Positions 39,133 through 47,870 of a stretch of 64,000 nucleotides of DNA are shown here, one piece after another. Position 1 is the first letter of the stretch. Every line of letters begins with the position of its first letter. Location: the NCBI RefSeq assembly GCF_030378065.1, contig NZ_JAUCGJ010000007.1:1-64000 (forward strand), in the 5' to 3' direction. Under the pieces are notes generated by a model. The model worked only from the letters and a program-made list of their open reading frames with translations, made no database searches and had not been told where the DNA came from. The DNA comes from Candidatus Venteria ishoeyi. GTDB taxonomy: Bacteria > Pseudomonadota > Gammaproteobacteria > Beggiatoales > Beggiatoaceae. The position numbers and the translations under genes are program-made.

Positions 39133-39714
39133 TTAATCTGTCAGATTTGCCGCAACAAAATCCCAATTCACCAGATTCCAGAAAGCTTCCAGATATTTAG
39201 GACGCGCATTACGATAATCAATGTAATAGGCATGTTCCCAGACATCACAGGTCAGCAGTGGTTTGTCATCACTGCTTAATGGCGTCGCAGCATTGCTGGT
39301 ACTGGCTAAGGCCAGACTGCCATCGGCTTTTTTCACCAGCCAGCCCCAACCGGAACCAAAGGTGGTGATCGCATTTTTGCTGAAAGCGTCTTTGAATGCT
39401 GCAAAAGAGCCAAAAGAAGCATTAATCGCATCCGCTAAAGCGCCACTGGGTTCACCGCCACCATTTGGACTTAGGCAATTCCAATAAAAACTGTGATTCC
39501 AGACTTGCGCTGCATTATTAAAAATGCCACCACTGGATTTTTTCACGATCTCTTCCAGGTTCATATTTTCAAACTCAGTGCCTGGAATCAGCTTGTTAAG
39601 ATTGGTCGCATAAGTCTGATGGTGTTTGCCATAATGAAACTCCAGCGTTTCCGCAGAAATATGAGGTTCCAGTGCATTTTTTTCATAAGGCAGCGCAGGT
39701 AATGTATGTTCCAT
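39133..39714 (-). CDS. sodB: Iron superoxide dismutase
   Basis: A 193-residue cytoplasmic superoxide dismutase of the Fe type. Metal ligands: His in [18 protein letters not shown], His in [20 protein letters not shown], and Asp with His in [40 protein letters not shown] fits the FeSOD class. It detoxifies superoxide and pairs functionally with aerotolerance and Fe-S enzymes here. The gene is monocistronic with a family B repeat upstream. Confidence 0.96.
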
Positions 39715-41657: not shown

Positions 41658-43130
41658 CTAAAAGTCGTGAAGGATAATTTCACTGCTGCGGCGACAGATT
41701 TCCCGCCCATAATCAGTCCACAATCCCTGCCCCCAATAACGGTAACAACTGGTTTGCGAGGCCATTAGATGATACAGGGCATTACGATAAGCATGGCTAC
41801 GGGTATCTGGTTGCTGGCTTAATACTTTTTTGCTGAATAAAACGCTGCTTTGCTCCATCGGGCCTAACACATTTTCATAACCGGCAACCCAGGAAATATT
41901 ATTAGTCCAACTACCGCCATCCATATGGAAACGATCATCTTCCTGCTTCAGCTTTTTAATACTTTGTTCCAGTTTTTCCGCACCTGATCCCGCATCAAAG
42001 CGTTCCCAGATGTGTTTTTGCAAGACGGGCTGCACCACCGGCAAATCAGACATTTGAATACCTAAAGCAAACAAGTGATCCAGGTATTCGGAAACGTTCA
42101 TCAGCGGCACTTGAGAACCACTGGCTTCGCGCACCACATCCTGATATTTAGGAGGGAATTCATTCATCATCACGCCACCGTTTTCCCCATCGGCAATCTG
42201 AGTCACCAAAGGCGGTACGGCATGTCCTGCCAATGTTTGTCGGTCCAGGCTTTGCGCTTCATACCAGGGCTGCATTTGTGCAACCAGCTTGCTATCACTG
42301 CCCTGGGTTTTGATAATGGCGATGATTTCCGCTGTTTCGCCATTGGAATTAGTGCAGACCAGGCGATGTGGCAAATGTGGATTGCGGATACCGTTCCCGG
42401 TTGCAGGATCTTCGATGGTATGCTCTTGTAGCAGCACCCACTGATAACCCGCATCGTTTAAGGTTTTGACAAATTCATAAGCGACATCAGGATGATTGGG
42501 TAAAGCCATTTCAGAAGGTGAAAACCCCCGCACCCGTGCCAAGGCTTCCGCGCCAAAAATGGCAGCAAAATGATGCTGCCAGGCGCGTACATGCAAGCGA
42601 TAATCCTGCACTGGTGTGGAAGGCGCAACCGCATGTCCCCAGGGGCATCCCAGCCATTCTACCGCATCTTGGTATTGTGGATCACAGGTAATGGTTTGCA
42701 AATGTTCTATAACGGCATCAGCGCCCATCTGCCGCAGAGCAAATAATAAAGTACCGGAATATTCCAGCATTACACGGGGTTGTTTGCCTTCTGCCATCAA
42801 CTCGGGAATAAAACGTCCCATGCGTTGATAACAGTCTTGAAACACGGGTGCATTATGATTGTCACCAATATTCTGGTGCGCCATCATATCCTGCAAGTTA
42901 CCAATAATTTCAGCCGTTTGCAGCTCATCGCCACCGGCGGGAATCAATGGCTGGTGCATGTGCAGGGCAATCGCGCAAGCACTTTTAATCCGCTCAAAGG
43001 CAATAGGGCTGTTTGTCAAAGAAACTGGTTTGCACCGATGTTCAGCAATAAGTGTGCTGAGGTATTGTTCTTCACCACAAATATTCGGTAAACCATTAAT
43101 TTGTTCAGCTAACTGGGGCGAATGAGACAT
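41658..43130 (-). CDS. GH57-like glycoside hydrolase
   Basis: A 490-residue protein of the glycoside hydrolase 57 superfamily, which includes alpha-amylases, 4-alpha-glucanotransferases and branching enzymes. Seen: ACAIALHMHQPLIPAGGDEL (the HxHQP motif), CPWGHAVAPSTPVQDYRLHV, RGFSPSEMALPNHPDVAYEF with the nucleophile Glu, and IADGENGGVMMNEFPPKYQD with DGE. Cytoplasmic. Placed 15 bases after glgA, so it very likely acts on glycogen, perhaps as branching or transferase enzyme since no glgB lies nearby. The exact activity cannot be decided from the sequence. Confidence 0.88.
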   Translation of the reverse strand: MSHSPQLAEQINGLPNICGEEQYLSTLIAEHRCKPVSLTNSPIAFERIKSACAIALHMHQPLIPAGGDELQTAEIIGNLQDMMAHQNIGDNHNAPVFQDCYQRMGRFIPELMAEGKQPRVMLEYSGTLLFALRQMGADAVIEHLQTITCDPQYQDAVEWLGCPWGHAVAPSTPVQDYRLHVRAWQHHFAAIFGAEALARVRGFSPSEMALPNHPDVAYEFVKTLNDAGYQWVLLQEHTIEDPATGNGIRNPHLPHRLVCTNSNGETAEIIAIIKTQGSDSKLVAQMQPWYEAQSLDRQTLAGHAVPPLVTQIADGENGGVMMNEFPPKYQDVVREASGSQVPLMNVSEYLDHLFALGIQMSDLPVVQPVLQKHIWERFDAGSGAEKLEQSIKKLKQEDDRFHMDGGSWTNNISWVAGYENVLGPMEQSSVLFSKKVLSQQPDTRSHAYRNALYHLMASQTSCYRYWGQGLWTDYGREICRRSSEIILHDF

Positions 43131-43145
43131 GGGAAATCCTGTTGT

Positions 43146-44633
43146 TTAAACCTTGGTTACGGAGATATGCTCATAGGCATTGAGATAATTCTGTACGGAT
43201 TGTTTCCAGGAATAGTCACACTTCATGCCATGCACCAATAATCTACGGAAAATATCCGGGTGTGAATTCCATAAACCAATAGCGCGGTGTAAGGCCGATT
43301 CCAGCCCTTCTGGCGTGGCATCGTAAAACACATAACCATTGCGCTGACAATTCGGATTGGGTGATTTATGCTCATCATTCCAATCAAATACCGTATCAGC
43401 AAGTCCGCCGATGGCGCGTACAATCGGCACCGTGCCATAGCGCAAGGCGATAAGTTGGGTTAAACCGCAAGGCTCATACAAACTGGGTACCACAACCATG
43501 TCACTGCCAGCATAGATTAAATGCGCCAGTTCTTCATTAAAGCCAATTTCCAGATGGCAGTCAGGATTATCATTGAGTTCAAATTTTAGTTTCCAGAATT
43601 CATCATTGATACGCGCTTCCGGGCTAGAACCTAATAATACAAACTGCGCACCATTATCCAAGGCATAAAATAAGCTGTGGCGGATGAGAGCGATGCCTTT
43701 TTGTGTATCCAGTCGCCCAATATAAGCGATAATTGGTTTATAGGCTTCCTCTAGCAATAAACGATTGCACAAGGCAATTTTATTGGCATATTTACCATCA
43801 AGATTGTTAACTGTGTAGTTATGCGGTAGCAGTGTATCGGTTTCAGGATTCCAGGCTTCATAATCCAGGCCGTTGAGTATGCCGCCAAACTTGTGTTGAT
43901 GGACATGCAGAATATGCCCTAAGCCATAACCCTGTTCGGTATGGCGTGCTTCCCAGGCGTGGGTGGGGGAAACGGTATTGGCATAGTTAGCATAGACAAT
44001 GCCGCCTTTCATCAGATTAATACGTCGTGGTGAGAAATCATCACCCAGACGATCACGGTTGCCGTAATACTCAGGACGCTGCAAACCAGAGGCCCACAAT
44101 ACCTCCTCATCACATACACCCTGGTGTTTAAAGTTATGAATGGTATAACACACCCGCTGCTGCTGCATACCATGATATTGATACAGCTCATATAACAATA
44201 CCGGCAACAAGCCTGTCTGCCAGTCATGGGCATGGATAATATCCGGGCGTTTGTTGGTTTTCAGCATAAATTCCAGCGCAGCCTTGCTGAAAAAAGCAAA
44301 GCGCATCACTTCATCATGAAAACCATAAAAATTATTGCGGTTAAAGTAGTTATCCTGAGAATGGGGTTCAATAAAAAAACACCGTCTACCATCACTGAAA
44401 CCAAACCAGACCGTGCAATGTATTGCGCCACCATACCAGGGCACCCATAAATCACGGTAAGCAATCTGCAAGTCATAAATATGGTCATAACGCATACAAT
44501 CATATTTAGGCAAAATGATTTCAACAGTGTGTCCGCGTTGATCCAGTTCACCGCTCAGGCTGTGAACCACATCAGCCAACCCTCCAACTTTGGCAACCGG
44601 GGCGCATTCGGAAGCCACCATGATGATATACAT
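43146..44633 (-). CDS. glgA: Glycogen synthase
   Basis: GlgA transfers glucose from ADP-glucose to the end of alpha-1,4-glucan. Family GT5, 495 residues. The ADP-glucose motif KVGGLADVVHSLSGEL is near the N-terminus (ECAPVAKVGGLADV). The C-terminal half has YIGRLDTQKGIALIRHSLFY and the acceptor/nucleotide block SLYEPCGLTQLIALRYGTVP, then IVRAIGGLADTV. It is cytoplasmic and lies between the HTH-ferredoxin-reductase gene (18 bases upstream) and the GH57 gene. No glgC or glgP is in the window. Confidence 0.95.
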   Translation of the reverse strand: MYIIMVASECAPVAKVGGLADVVHSLSGELDQRGHTVEIILPKYDCMRYDHIYDLQIAYRDLWVPWYGGAIHCTVWFGFSDGRRCFFIEPHSQDNYFNRNNFYGFHDEVMRFAFFSKAALEFMLKTNKRPDIIHAHDWQTGLLPVLLYELYQYHGMQQQRVCYTIHNFKHQGVCDEEVLWASGLQRPEYYGNRDRLGDDFSPRRINLMKGGIVYANYANTVSPTHAWEARHTEQGYGLGHILHVHQHKFGGILNGLDYEAWNPETDTLLPHNYTVNNLDGKYANKIALCNRLLLEEAYKPIIAYIGRLDTQKGIALIRHSLFYALDNGAQFVLLGSSPEARINDEFWKLKFELNDNPDCHLEIGFNEELAHLIYAGSDMVVVPSLYEPCGLTQLIALRYGTVPIVRAIGGLADTVFDWNDEHKSPNPNCQRNGYVFYDATPEGLESALHRAIGLWNSHPDIFRRLLVHGMKCDYSWKQSVQNYLNAYEHISVTKV

Positions 44634-44651: not shown

Positions 44652-46163
44652 TCAATCACAAGTATTTGCGTGTTCTGTAAAAAAACAATGCTCAGGATTG
44701 GCCTGACGCGATAATAAAAAATCTTGTACTAAAGTTTGTAAAGGTTCAGGCATGGCAACATAAATATAATAACGCCGTAAATCTGTTAATTTTGAAAAAG
44801 TGCTTTGCAGATAATGGTCTAATGCGTCATTTTCATTGATTGCCAGATTACCCAGATGTAATGGTGTGTAATAAAAATTATCCAGCGCATCTTGCCAGGA
44901 ACGACACAGATTATGCATATAATGTCCCGGCATTTGCTCGCCACTAGTTTCTGTCAGCCAATAGAGATGCCAGCTTTCTGCATTATCTACTGAAACTGTA
45001 TGCTCAATCAAACTTTTAATGGGAGCAAAACCTGTCTCCCAGGCAATCAATAATAACGGTGCCGTCACATCAAAGGGTAAGGTGAAATTACCGCTGGGAC
45101 CTTTTAAGTGCAGATTTTTTTTGGCCTGTGCCTGAGTGAATAAATAAGTGGCTAAATGATCATGTTCAAGTCGTGGAATATGAAATTCCAGATTTTTACC
45201 ATCACAAGGGCAACTGGCAACCGGATAACGATGTTGCCCGACACCTTCCAGACTCAGCACCACATCCTGTCCCGCCATAAAGCGCAATGTCTGAGTATCA
45301 GGGGTTTGAATTTTTAAGATGAGTAAACGATCATTGAGTCGATTGATTTGCTTGATTTCAACCTCAATTTCCTGCTCAGCAATATCTGCCGGACAATGCG
45401 CTTCTCCCGCTTCCAGGGTCACATCTGTGACTGCGGTATAAGAGCACATCAGCATATAGCCCAGATTGAGTTCAGTTTGACTCAATTCATATTCATGATC
45501 GCGAACCTTTAAAACCTCCCCGCCAACCACGCGCGCTTTGCAAGCACCGCAATTTCCCTGTGTACAACCATAATTGACCGCTACGCCAGCATTCAGGGCG
45601 GCTTCCAGAATGGAGCCGGTGCCTTCTGCAAAAAACTCATGACCGCTGGGAATCAGCTTAATCTGTGCAGCCAGCAGGCGTAAAAAGGTATCTTTAACCA
45701 GTAGTTCTGTTTTCTGACGAGGGACTTTAGGGCATTTTGTTTTATTCTGTGCAATCCAGGCATTCAGATCACTTAGTTTTTCCAGAAATTCCGGGGGGCA
45801 GGATTGCTCCACTTCCACCAGTTTTGCTTCCAGTCCCTCAATTAATTCCGCATAATGTCCCAGTAAAGCACGGCTTTCAACCAATTCCCGGCTGAGACTA
45901 CTCAAACGGCTGGCCAGGACTTCCGAAGGCGGTAACTCTGGCAGGTCATGATCGCCACGCTGCGCATTACGCTGAATTTTTTGCACCTTCTCCAGCATGC
46001 GCTCATCTTCCAGATGCGTTTGCGGATAAACCCTTAATAAATCAGAAGCCTTAACCATTCCTTCAAAGGTTGGCAACTCATTTTGATGAATTTTTTTTTG
46101 TAATGCGCCGCGAGTAACGCCAACCAGGCGTGCGGCACGGGATACGGTTAATAATTGTGGCAT
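44652..46163 (-). CDS. HTH-coiled coil-ferredoxin-reductase fusion
   Basis: A 503-residue fusion. Residues 1-50 form a MerR/excisionase-like HTH (LTVSRAARLVGVTRGALQKK). Residues 80-125 are helical and probably coiled coil. Residues 165-255 are a plant-type 2Fe-2S ferredoxin: Cys-200, -205 and -208 in YGCTQGNCGACKARVVGGEV, and Cys-240 in LMCSYTAV. Then comes a ferredoxin-NADP reductase-like module with HRYPVASCPC at the FAD site and LLIAWETGFAPIKSLIEH at the NAD(P) site. The latter departs from the usual GGTGIAP. It could be a redox-responsive regulator or a DNA-linked oxidoreductase. It heads the operon with glgA and the GH57 gene; AAGGGG lies before the ATG. Function is inferred only. Confidence 0.85.
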   Translation of the reverse strand: MPQLLTVSRAARLVGVTRGALQKKIHQNELPTFEGMVKASDLLRVYPQTHLEDERMLEKVQKIQRNAQRGDHDLPELPPSEVLASRLSSLSRELVESRALLGHYAELIEGLEAKLVEVEQSCPPEFLEKLSDLNAWIAQNKTKCPKVPRQKTELLVKDTFLRLLAAQIKLIPSGHEFFAEGTGSILEAALNAGVAVNYGCTQGNCGACKARVVGGEVLKVRDHEYELSQTELNLGYMLMCSYTAVTDVTLEAGEAHCPADIAEQEIEVEIKQINRLNDRLLILKIQTPDTQTLRFMAGQDVVLSLEGVGQHRYPVASCPCDGKNLEFHIPRLEHDHLATYLFTQAQAKKNLHLKGPSGNFTLPFDVTAPLLLIAWETGFAPIKSLIEHTVSVDNAESWHLYWLTETSGEQMPGHYMHNLCRSWQDALDNFYYTPLHLGNLAINENDALDHYLQSTFSKLTDLRRYYIYVAMPEPLQTLVQDFLLSRQANPEHCFFTEHANTCD

Positions 46164-46265
46164 ATCAAATCCCCTTTCCCCGCTTATGAGTTATTGCAAT
46201 TATCGATGTCAAAACAGTTTACGCCATTTTTGCATGAGAATCATTACGGCATTACAATAGCGATT

Positions 46266-46805
46266 ATGTTAGAAAAATTTCAACAATTAGATACACGTGA
46301 ACAGCGCGCTTTGTGGTTTGGCGGCTTGAGTTTATTTTTAATCCTGGCTTACTTCCTGGTGTGGGAACCCCTGCTGCAAAATCGCCAGGTATTACGCACA
46401 CAGCTTGCAGAGCAACAGCAATTATTACACTGGATGCAGCAGGCACAAATGGAAGTTCAAAAATTGCAACACAAGCAAAATGTGCGTCAAGTCACGTTGC
46501 CTGTCGGCATGTCTTTATTATCCGTGGTGGATCAAAGCCTGCGCCAGGGGGCATTGCAGGCCTTAAATAAACAAGTGCAGCCGCATGGTGATAATGGGGC
46601 TGAGCCACAGATTGCTGTGCGTTTTAAGTCCATCGCACTGGATACTTTGTTACAATGGCTGGCAAGTTTATATAATCAATATGGTATTCAAGCCAAGCAA
46701 CTGAATCTGGAACGTCTGAATTTGAAACGTCATAATAAGCCGCAAAAAAAATCAAATCAAGCCACTGATAATCAAGTGAAAGTCAGATTAGTATTAAGCC
46801 AGTAA
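46266..46805 (+). CDS. gspM: Type II secretion protein M (GspM)
   Basis: GspM is an inner-membrane pseudopilus-platform protein that partners GspL. The 179 residues show the family plan: DTREQRALWFGGLSLFLILA, one transmembrane helix near residue 15-32, then a heptad-like coil (QVLRTQLAEQQQLLHWMQQA) and a periplasmic ferredoxin-like domain. It stands without gspL or other gsp genes. The frame opens at 46155, but the family begins at MLEKFQQLDTREQ (46266). It is divergent from the HTH fusion gene and precedes the HD-GYP gene by nine bases. Confidence 0.82.
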   Translation: MLEKFQQLDTREQRALWFGGLSLFLILAYFLVWEPLLQNRQVLRTQLAEQQQLLHWMQQAQMEVQKLQHKQNVRQVTLPVGMSLLSVVDQSLRQGALQALNKQVQPHGDNGAEPQIAVRFKSIALDTLLQWLASLYNQYGIQAKQLNLERLNLKRHNKPQKKSNQATDNQVKVRLVLSQ

Positions 46806-46814
46806 AAATTTATT

Positions 46815-47870
46815 ATGAACTACAACAATCATATTCTTATCGTAGATGATGTACCTGATAATATTCAGGTGGCGATGAATATTTTAAAAGAAGACAACTA
46901 CGCTTTCTCTTTTGCAATGGATGGCAGACAGGCATTAGATCTGGTAGAAAGTAATGGCAGTGGATTTGATCTGATCTTGCTGGATATTATGATGCCGGAA
47001 ATTGATGGCTTTGAGGTTTGTCGGCAGTTAAAGACCAAAACCCTGCACCAGGATGTACCGGTCATTTTTCTCAGTGCCAAAGTGGATGTCGAGTCGATTA
47101 CCCAGGGCTTTGAGGTTGGTGGCGTGGATTATATTACCAAACCTTTCCATGCCAACGAGCTGCTGGCGCGGGTGAAAAATCATATCCAGCTTTATCATTC
47201 AAAAAAATTATTACAACAACATAATATTAATTTACATACCAAAATGAAGTTTGAGCATAATCGTCTGCTCAGTGAACTGGAAGCCAATCAAAAAGATATT
47301 ATTTATATTTTGACAGAATTGATGGAATCCACCTCCGATGAAACCGGTAAACACATTAAGCGTGTGGCTGAATATTGCCGTTTAATGGCGCATTACCACG
47401 ATTGCCTGAATGATGAAGATGCCGAGGTGTTATATCATGCCGCACCCATGCATGATATTGGCAAAATGATGGTCTCACAAGATATTCTACATAAACCCGA
47501 TAAGCTGACAGTTGAAGAATTCAACCTCATCCAACAACATACCTTACACGGACACACCTTGTTGGGTCATTCCGAACGCAAAATCATCAAAGCTGCTGCG
47601 GTGATTGCTTATGAGCATCATGAAAAATGGAATGGAGAAGGTTATCCACAGGGCTTGAAAGGTGAAGAAATCCATATTTATGGACGTATTACCAGTATTG
47701 CCGATGTCTTTGACGCACTGACGCATAAACGTATTTATAAGGACTCATGGGCCGTCGAAGATGCAGTTGCTTATATTGAGCAGCAACAGGGTAGCCATTT
47801 TGATCCCAGTTTAGTGGCCTTGTTTCTCGACCATGTTGATGAATTTATTGCAATATCCCAACAAAATTGA
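46815..47870 (+). CDS. Response regulator with HD-GYP domain
   Basis: A 351-residue cyclic-di-GMP phosphodiesterase-type response regulator. The N-terminal REC domain has [31 protein letters not shown] with the phospho-acceptor Asp, and the Lys in [17 protein letters not shown]. The HD-GYP domain has [20 protein letters not shown] and [19 protein letters not shown] (HHExWNGxGYP with Asn at the usual Asp). It should hydrolyse c-di-GMP when active. The next gene encodes a hybrid kinase starting at the TGATG overlap, so this is its likely partner. Confidence 0.93.

Follow-up and report, generated by a model that had tools for sequence, protein, structure and literature searches.

Oxygenase reductases of the BenC/T4moF/AntC type ([2Fe-2S]-FAD-NADH; 1krh, 4wqm) share the domain order ferredoxin-FAD domain-NAD domain, four cluster cysteines and fold with a 503-aa protein encoded in a 64,000-nucleotide stretch of Candidatus Venteria ishoeyi DNA, called the window here. 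Unlike these reductases, the family of the window protein lacks the RxYS and GG motifs and mostly lacks CGPP, while it possesses a Cys-Pro-Cys motif, Cys420 and a putative HTH-coiled-coil head. The BenC/T4moF/AntC proteins are linked to oxygenases, whereas the window family is most probably linked to dsr genes. SoxR, a MerR-family [2Fe-2S] redox regulator, provides an analogy as it likewise joins a MerR-type winged HTH, a coiled coil and a [2Fe-2S] cluster in one chain. The SoxR cluster is held in a short CX2CXCX5C loop. Unlike SoxR, the window protein has a complete plant-type ferredoxin and a FNR-fold module, and its domain order is different.

According to published work, little is known of the way in which sulfur-oxidising bacteria sense reduced sulfur (PMC10451225), and what several dsr accessory genes do is likewise unresolved (PMC3368242). 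In ArsR-type repressors of sulfur oxidation, sulfane sulfur is known to be sensed through the thiols of paired cysteines. Such two-cysteine repressors, SqrR, SoxR-ArsR and sHdrR, resemble the window family in their association with sulfur-oxidation genes and in their paired cysteines (PMC10451225, PMC12423496), but they have an ArsR fold with neither cluster nor reductase scaffold, whereas in the window family both cysteines are placed in a CxC on a FNR fold. The genes for DsrR and DsrS come last in dsrLJOPNRS, a position shared by a short form of the window family, but the two proteins show no sequence relation to that family and contain neither HTH nor ferredoxin. DsrR is IscA-like without Fe-S binding and has a reported role in the regulation of sulfur oxidation (cited in PMC11406059). 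Among the profile libraries and literature searched, no described family joins all these features, the parts themselves being of known kinds, and no description of an HTH-ferredoxin-reductase fusion was found in that literature. The new features are the probable Dsr linkage, the conserved Cys-Pro-Cys of a probable pseudo-reductase, and the fusion and fission with a MerR/Xis-like HTH.

Gene and domain organization

The 503-aa ORF is real and is situated on the minus strand with its start codon at 46163, while the plus strand of 44652..46163 has stops throughout. The gene and its predicted parts are as follows.

44652..46163, minus strand: whole gene, putative HTH / coiled coil / [2Fe-2S] / degenerate FNR fusion of 503 aa (full-length homologues, Pfam, AlphaFold2)
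46023..46163, minus strand: putative MerR/Xis-like winged HTH head, residues 1-47 (AlphaFold2 pattern; weak Foldseek E; profiles below cut-off)
45738..45926, minus strand: long helices predicted to form a coiled coil and probably to dimerise, residues 80-142 (AlphaFold2)
45396..45671, minus strand: plant-type [2Fe-2S] ferredoxin, residues 165-256, with Cys200/205/208/240 (Fer2 E 1.6e-13)
44673..45374, minus strand: FNR-fold module lacking the FAD and NAD(P) motifs, residues 264-497 (fold match to 1krh/4wqm/FNR; motif counts)

Pfam analysis of the protein identified Fer2 at residues 172-242 (E 1.6e-13) and FAD_binding_6 at 269-360 (E 2.2e-5), and NAD_binding_1 gave no match. In the head, HTH_17 (E 0.0024) and the NCBIfam excisionase-type HTH TIGR01764 (residues 4-31) both matched below their cut-offs. 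An AlphaFold2 model from a 49-row family alignment (mean pLDDT 87 for the whole protein) is composed of a beta-helix-turn-helix-beta-helix head at 4-45, a coiled coil at 80-142, a ferredoxin and a FNR fold. The predicted secondary structure of the head is a strand at 4-6, helices at 7-14 and 18-26, a strand at 36-38 and a helix at 39-45, and the head modelled separately had a pLDDT of 81. Foldseek matched the C-terminal part to BenC/T4moF/FNR with E down to 1e-24. For the N-terminal part it returned Xis 4j2n (probability 0.97) and BldC 6ama (0.96), then MerR, RacA and SoxR, all with E above 0.1. The cysteines 200, 205, 208 and 240 were invariant in 49/49 full-length homologues, and the first three of them in 93/93 family members.

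The original prediction, made from the sequence of the window alone, had proposed an HTH, a coiled coil, a plant-type [2Fe-2S] ferredoxin with these four cluster cysteines and a FNR-like module. These domain calls are right, that of the HTH probably so, and the same order is kept at full length in many genomes; the fusion architecture is therefore not due to chance. The most natural reading of the putative HTH-ferredoxin fusion is that it binds DNA in a redox-linked role.

Motif loss and family-specific cysteines in the reductase module

The motifs of 93 family members were compared with those of eight ordinary (canonical) paralogues, one of them from Candidatus Venteria ishoeyi and 30% identical. 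The complete FAD motif R-x-[YF]-[ST] was present in 0/93 members and 8/8 paralogues, and so was the Gly-Gly of the dinucleotide motif GGTGxxP. The catalytic [CS]GP(P) was retained in 10/93 members compared with 7/8 paralogues, and it reads AMPE in the window protein. The positions that distinguish the family are as follows.

45036..45041, minus strand: Trp375-Glu376 where GGTGxxP has its Gly-Gly (Gly at 375 in no member)
45204..45212, minus strand: Cys318-Pro319-Cys320 at the former FAD-binding RxYS strand (C318 in 93/93 members, C320 in 92/93; paralogues 0/8)
44904..44906, minus strand: Cys420 in NLCRxWxDAL, the third family-specific cysteine (83/93 members, 0/8 paralogues)

The near-invariant Cys318-Pro-Cys320 had been overlooked in the first reading of the sequence. 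The altered nucleotide loop AWETGFAP noticed there (residues 374-381) is real and forms one piece of a wider motif loss in the module. The suggestion that the protein carries its own electron input was not borne out. In FNR enzymes, the loss of RxYS, GG and CGPP is expected to abolish normal use of FAD and NAD(P)H. As RxYS and GG are absent in all 93 members and the Cys/Ser of CGPP mostly so, NAD(P)H-driven reduction by this module is unlikely judging from its sequence, and the module is in all probability a pseudo-reductase.

Distribution and phylogeny of the family

Near full-length homologues with 46-57% identity were identified in 18 of the 43 genomes of the order beside the window's own. 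Candidatus Venteria ishoeyi carries a single fused copy, together with one ordinary reductase paralogue. In a class sample of 369 Gammaproteobacteria genomes, the ferredoxin-reductase part was found in 71 at E<=1e-55, and at least 34 of the 369 carry it fused to the HTH. One more fused case was found outside the class but within the phylum (G633). Spread by plasmids was rejected, as none of the plasmid records covers 80% of the 503-aa protein. A tree of 101 sequences split all members, fused and short, from the ordinary paralogues by a fully supported branch. The fused forms cluster in it, save a few losses of the HTH.

Some gene copies are decaying. One (L051, G031) is split by a frameshift and another (L052, G020) retains only the HTH part and stops after residue 148. 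In a further copy (L050, G019), the ORF begins at the ferredoxin and no HTH part was found. In parts of the order, the gene seems to be dispensable. Two small genes of ~111-130 aa and 136-154 aa recur near the HTH gene in several families, whether it is fused or stands alone (L088, L097, L105, L226, L228); the 136-154-aa gene corresponds to cluster c19/c7 and contains ...LLDSWG...RYRxxTPLPD...

Association with dsr genes

The presence of dsrA was scored with the profile TIGR02064 over the 369 class genomes and a strong match was obtained in 119. Genomes with the ferredoxin-reductase part had dsrA in 64/71 cases, against 55/298 genomes without the part (odds ratio 40, kinship ignored). The HTH-coiled-coil profile detected 65 genomes, 59 of them with dsrA, and the stand-alone HTH was present in 31 genomes, 30 with dsrA (odds ratio 84, kinship again ignored). 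The 65 HTH-coiled-coil genomes represent ~34 families by hand count, and all but two of these families are represented in the sample by at least one genome with dsrA. Among the genomes with the reductase part, dsrA was not detected in seven of the class and one of the order, several of them being incomplete. Many dsrA genomes, including about half of the order, are without the gene; it is thus not essential to Dsr. Candidatus Venteria ishoeyi itself possesses dsrA on contig C57 and the fused gene on contig C96.

Gene order provided a second line of evidence. Two loci (L139 in G129, L140 in G057) show dsrL-J-O-P-N-R-S followed directly by the short HTH-less form, which overlaps dsrS by one base in G129. 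In naming these genes, DsrO was certain, DsrJ and DsrP were weaker (NCBIfam), DsrN was CobB-like, DsrR IscA-like, and DsrS was assigned by position and size. The short form was also situated close after a dsrS homologue (L173, G287) and 2.4 kb from a dsrA copy (L159, G350), while stand-alone HTH-coiled-coil genes were found 4 kb beyond dsrR (L221 and L222, in G150 and G266). The fused gene of G633, from another class, directly precedes a gene resembling dsrL, whose product has 58% identity to other DsrL (L122), and a further fused gene lies 4.4 kb from a dsrS homologue (L123). In ~7/71 genomes the gene is within 25 kb of dsrA, which is above chance (binomial 2e-4); in most, including Candidatus Venteria ishoeyi, the two are apart. 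We conclude with high confidence that the family is linked to sulfur oxidation by reverse dissimilatory sulfite reductase (Dsr).

A search for operators upstream of dsrA in 26 sequences revealed no target site; the palindromes did not exceed those of shuffled sequences, apart from two at 3/26. The sequence AGTATATTA upstream of dsrA occurred in some form in 15/26 but was rejected as an operator, being -10-box-like behind TTGAC and equally common in genomes without the gene. In nine genomes of the order (G025, G028, G031, G032, G034, G035, G036, G039, G040), dsrA is broken at one place, at about model residue 193. The interrupted gene is in frame in several (ORF of 591-762 aa) and forms separate ORFs in others (L207-L210 among the loci); the interruption looks like an intein and/or intron.

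Fused, adjacent and separate modules

The HTH-coiled-coil and ferredoxin-reductase parts were found in three arrangements: fused (34 genomes), as consecutive genes with a gap of 0-60 nt (seven loci) or far apart in the same genome. The stand-alone HTH-coiled-coil protein of the 31 genomes is ~145 aa long. HTH and reductase part occur together in 54/65 genomes (odds ratio 83), and in 56 after a closer look. Of the 11 doubtful HTH genomes, eight had as best reductase match an ordinary paralogue whose motifs are intact, and two a true Cys-Pro-Cys (CPC) form. The HTH is without a CPC reductase in 8-9 genomes and the ferredoxin-reductase part without a detectable HTH partner in 17/71, so neither part strictly needs the other. 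The seven loci with both as consecutive genes lend Rosetta-stone support to a joint action of the two parts.

Proposed function and alternatives

On balance, the most likely reading of the family is a redox- or sulfane-sulfur-responsive, MerR/Xis-like putative DNA-binding regulator of sulfur oxidisers. Starting from the observed architecture, motif loss and gain, modularity and Dsr linkage, the gene would be the fused version of a two-part, Dsr-linked system of sulfur-oxidising bacteria. The first part, the MerR/Xis-like winged HTH with its coiled coil, would presumably form a DNA-binding dimer. The second part, a [2Fe-2S] ferredoxin on a FNR scaffold stripped of cofactor motifs, would be a sensor and not an enzyme. 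It may respond to the redox state by means of the cluster, or to sulfane sulfur and persulfides by means of the Cys-Pro-Cys thiols, as in SqrR and sHdrR. The signal would then be passed to the HTH, resulting in control of sulfur-oxidation genes. The likeness to the two-cysteine repressors makes Cys-Pro-Cys as a sulfane-sulfur sensor suggestive but no more. Only tentatively may the family be taken as a new class of sulfur-responsive regulator, in which a dead ferredoxin reductase has its flavin site turned into a Cys-Pro-Cys sensor beside the [2Fe-2S] cluster and the HTH controls reverse-Dsr. The family is a testable candidate for sulfur sensing and is found over many gammaproteobacterial families. 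If the proposal is true, it provides a clear case of an enzyme fold without cofactor motifs that was probably reused as a sensor.

The main alternative, which we consider rather unlikely, is a Dsr-linked electron-transfer or sulfur-handling protein in which the HTH is a protein-docking domain. CbpM has a MerR-like HTH which binds the J-domain of CbpA, and the CbpM-CbpA complex 3ucs was also among the N-terminal fold matches. A role of its own for the second part is indicated by the HTH-less form after dsrS and by the genomes without an HTH partner, and the full conservation of the four cluster cysteines would also suit a carrier. However, a carrier deprived of FAD and NAD(P) motifs requires another electron donor. 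Docking is further opposed by the best N-terminal fold matches, which are mostly DNA-binding (Xis, BldC, MerR), and by the stand-alone HTH, which still occurs with dsrA even where a CPC reductase was not found.

It is improbable that the protein works as an NAD(P)H:ferredoxin reductase of BenC/T4moF type to which a DNA-binding head is joined. The fold and the overall similarity to BenC favour this reading, and Pfam matched FAD_binding_6 in 29/49 and NAD_binding_1 in 22/49 family members. In about half of the short forms, the FAD motif retains its Arg and Ser, and some members may therefore bind flavin weakly. Against this, RxYS and Gly-Gly are complete in no member and [CS]GP is found in few, while nearly all paralogues keep the three motifs.

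A further alternative is that the HTH is unrelated to the ferredoxin part and was fused to it by accident in a few lineages; the HTH genomes without a CPC reductase would fit this, but the 34 fused genomes over many families, the adjacent pairs and the co-occurrence of the two parts make it very improbable.

Genomic neighbourhood and the glycogen genes

The neighbours of the gene in the window are as follows.

43146..44633, minus strand: glgA, glycogen synthase, downstream neighbour (judged without functional link; adjacency only in the Candidatus Venteria ishoeyi genome)
41658..43130, minus strand: GH57 gene, paired with glgA in relatives as well (Pfam)
46155..46805, plus strand: gspM-like type II secretion gene, divergent neighbour (T2SSM E 9e-25)

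The 503-aa gene, glgA and the GH57 gene follow each other in that order on the minus strand, and the 18-base spacing and shared strand described in the original prediction are confirmed (end of the gene at 44652, glgA at 44633..43146). From this arrangement it had been proposed that the gene heads a glycogen operon and could regulate carbon storage. The short gap and common strand in Candidatus Venteria ishoeyi would fit co-transcription with glgA and a redox-sensing control of glycogen synthesis, but the adjacency was seen at no other locus and this reading is hardly credible. None of ~58 other gene-bearing loci has glgA or GH57 nearby, which largely refutes the glycogen operon. When domain order and glgA neighbourhood were checked across genomes, the gene was found near carbon-storage genes at the window locus only, and a search for GlgA and GH57 over all fetched loci returned just this locus and the separately fetched glgA loci. 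Other genes are situated downstream in 17/18 neighbourhoods of the full-length homologues in the order.

The glycogen genes themselves are common, glgA being present in 41/43 genomes of the order. In relatives, the 60-70% identical glgA is on a different contig from the HTH gene, and in the complete genome G041 a distance of 2.7 Mb separates them (1.55 and 4.23 Mb). Wherever the glgA flank allowed a check, GH57 was beside glgA (eight of the fetched glgA loci). Relatives thus keep glgA and GH57 as a pair, in another part of the genome than the HTH gene; the latter is therefore its accidental neighbour in Candidatus Venteria ishoeyi. Its place ahead of glgA would be the result of a local rearrangement.

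MoaB and RNase II were rejected as partners, as they were upstream in six and five order genomes, respectively, in a single part of the tree and not beyond. Around the gene (positions 36000-58000 of the window), a superoxide dismutase gene (39714..39133), a proline/glutamine-rich 542-aa ORF and gspM were found, along with an HD-domain response regulator (46815..47870) and, next after it, a 1212-aa hybrid sensor kinase that contains two SBP-like domains. Two genomes of the order (G003 and G004) each contain a pair of GlgA copies of the 50-60% identity type, plus the distant third copy common to nearly all genomes of the order.
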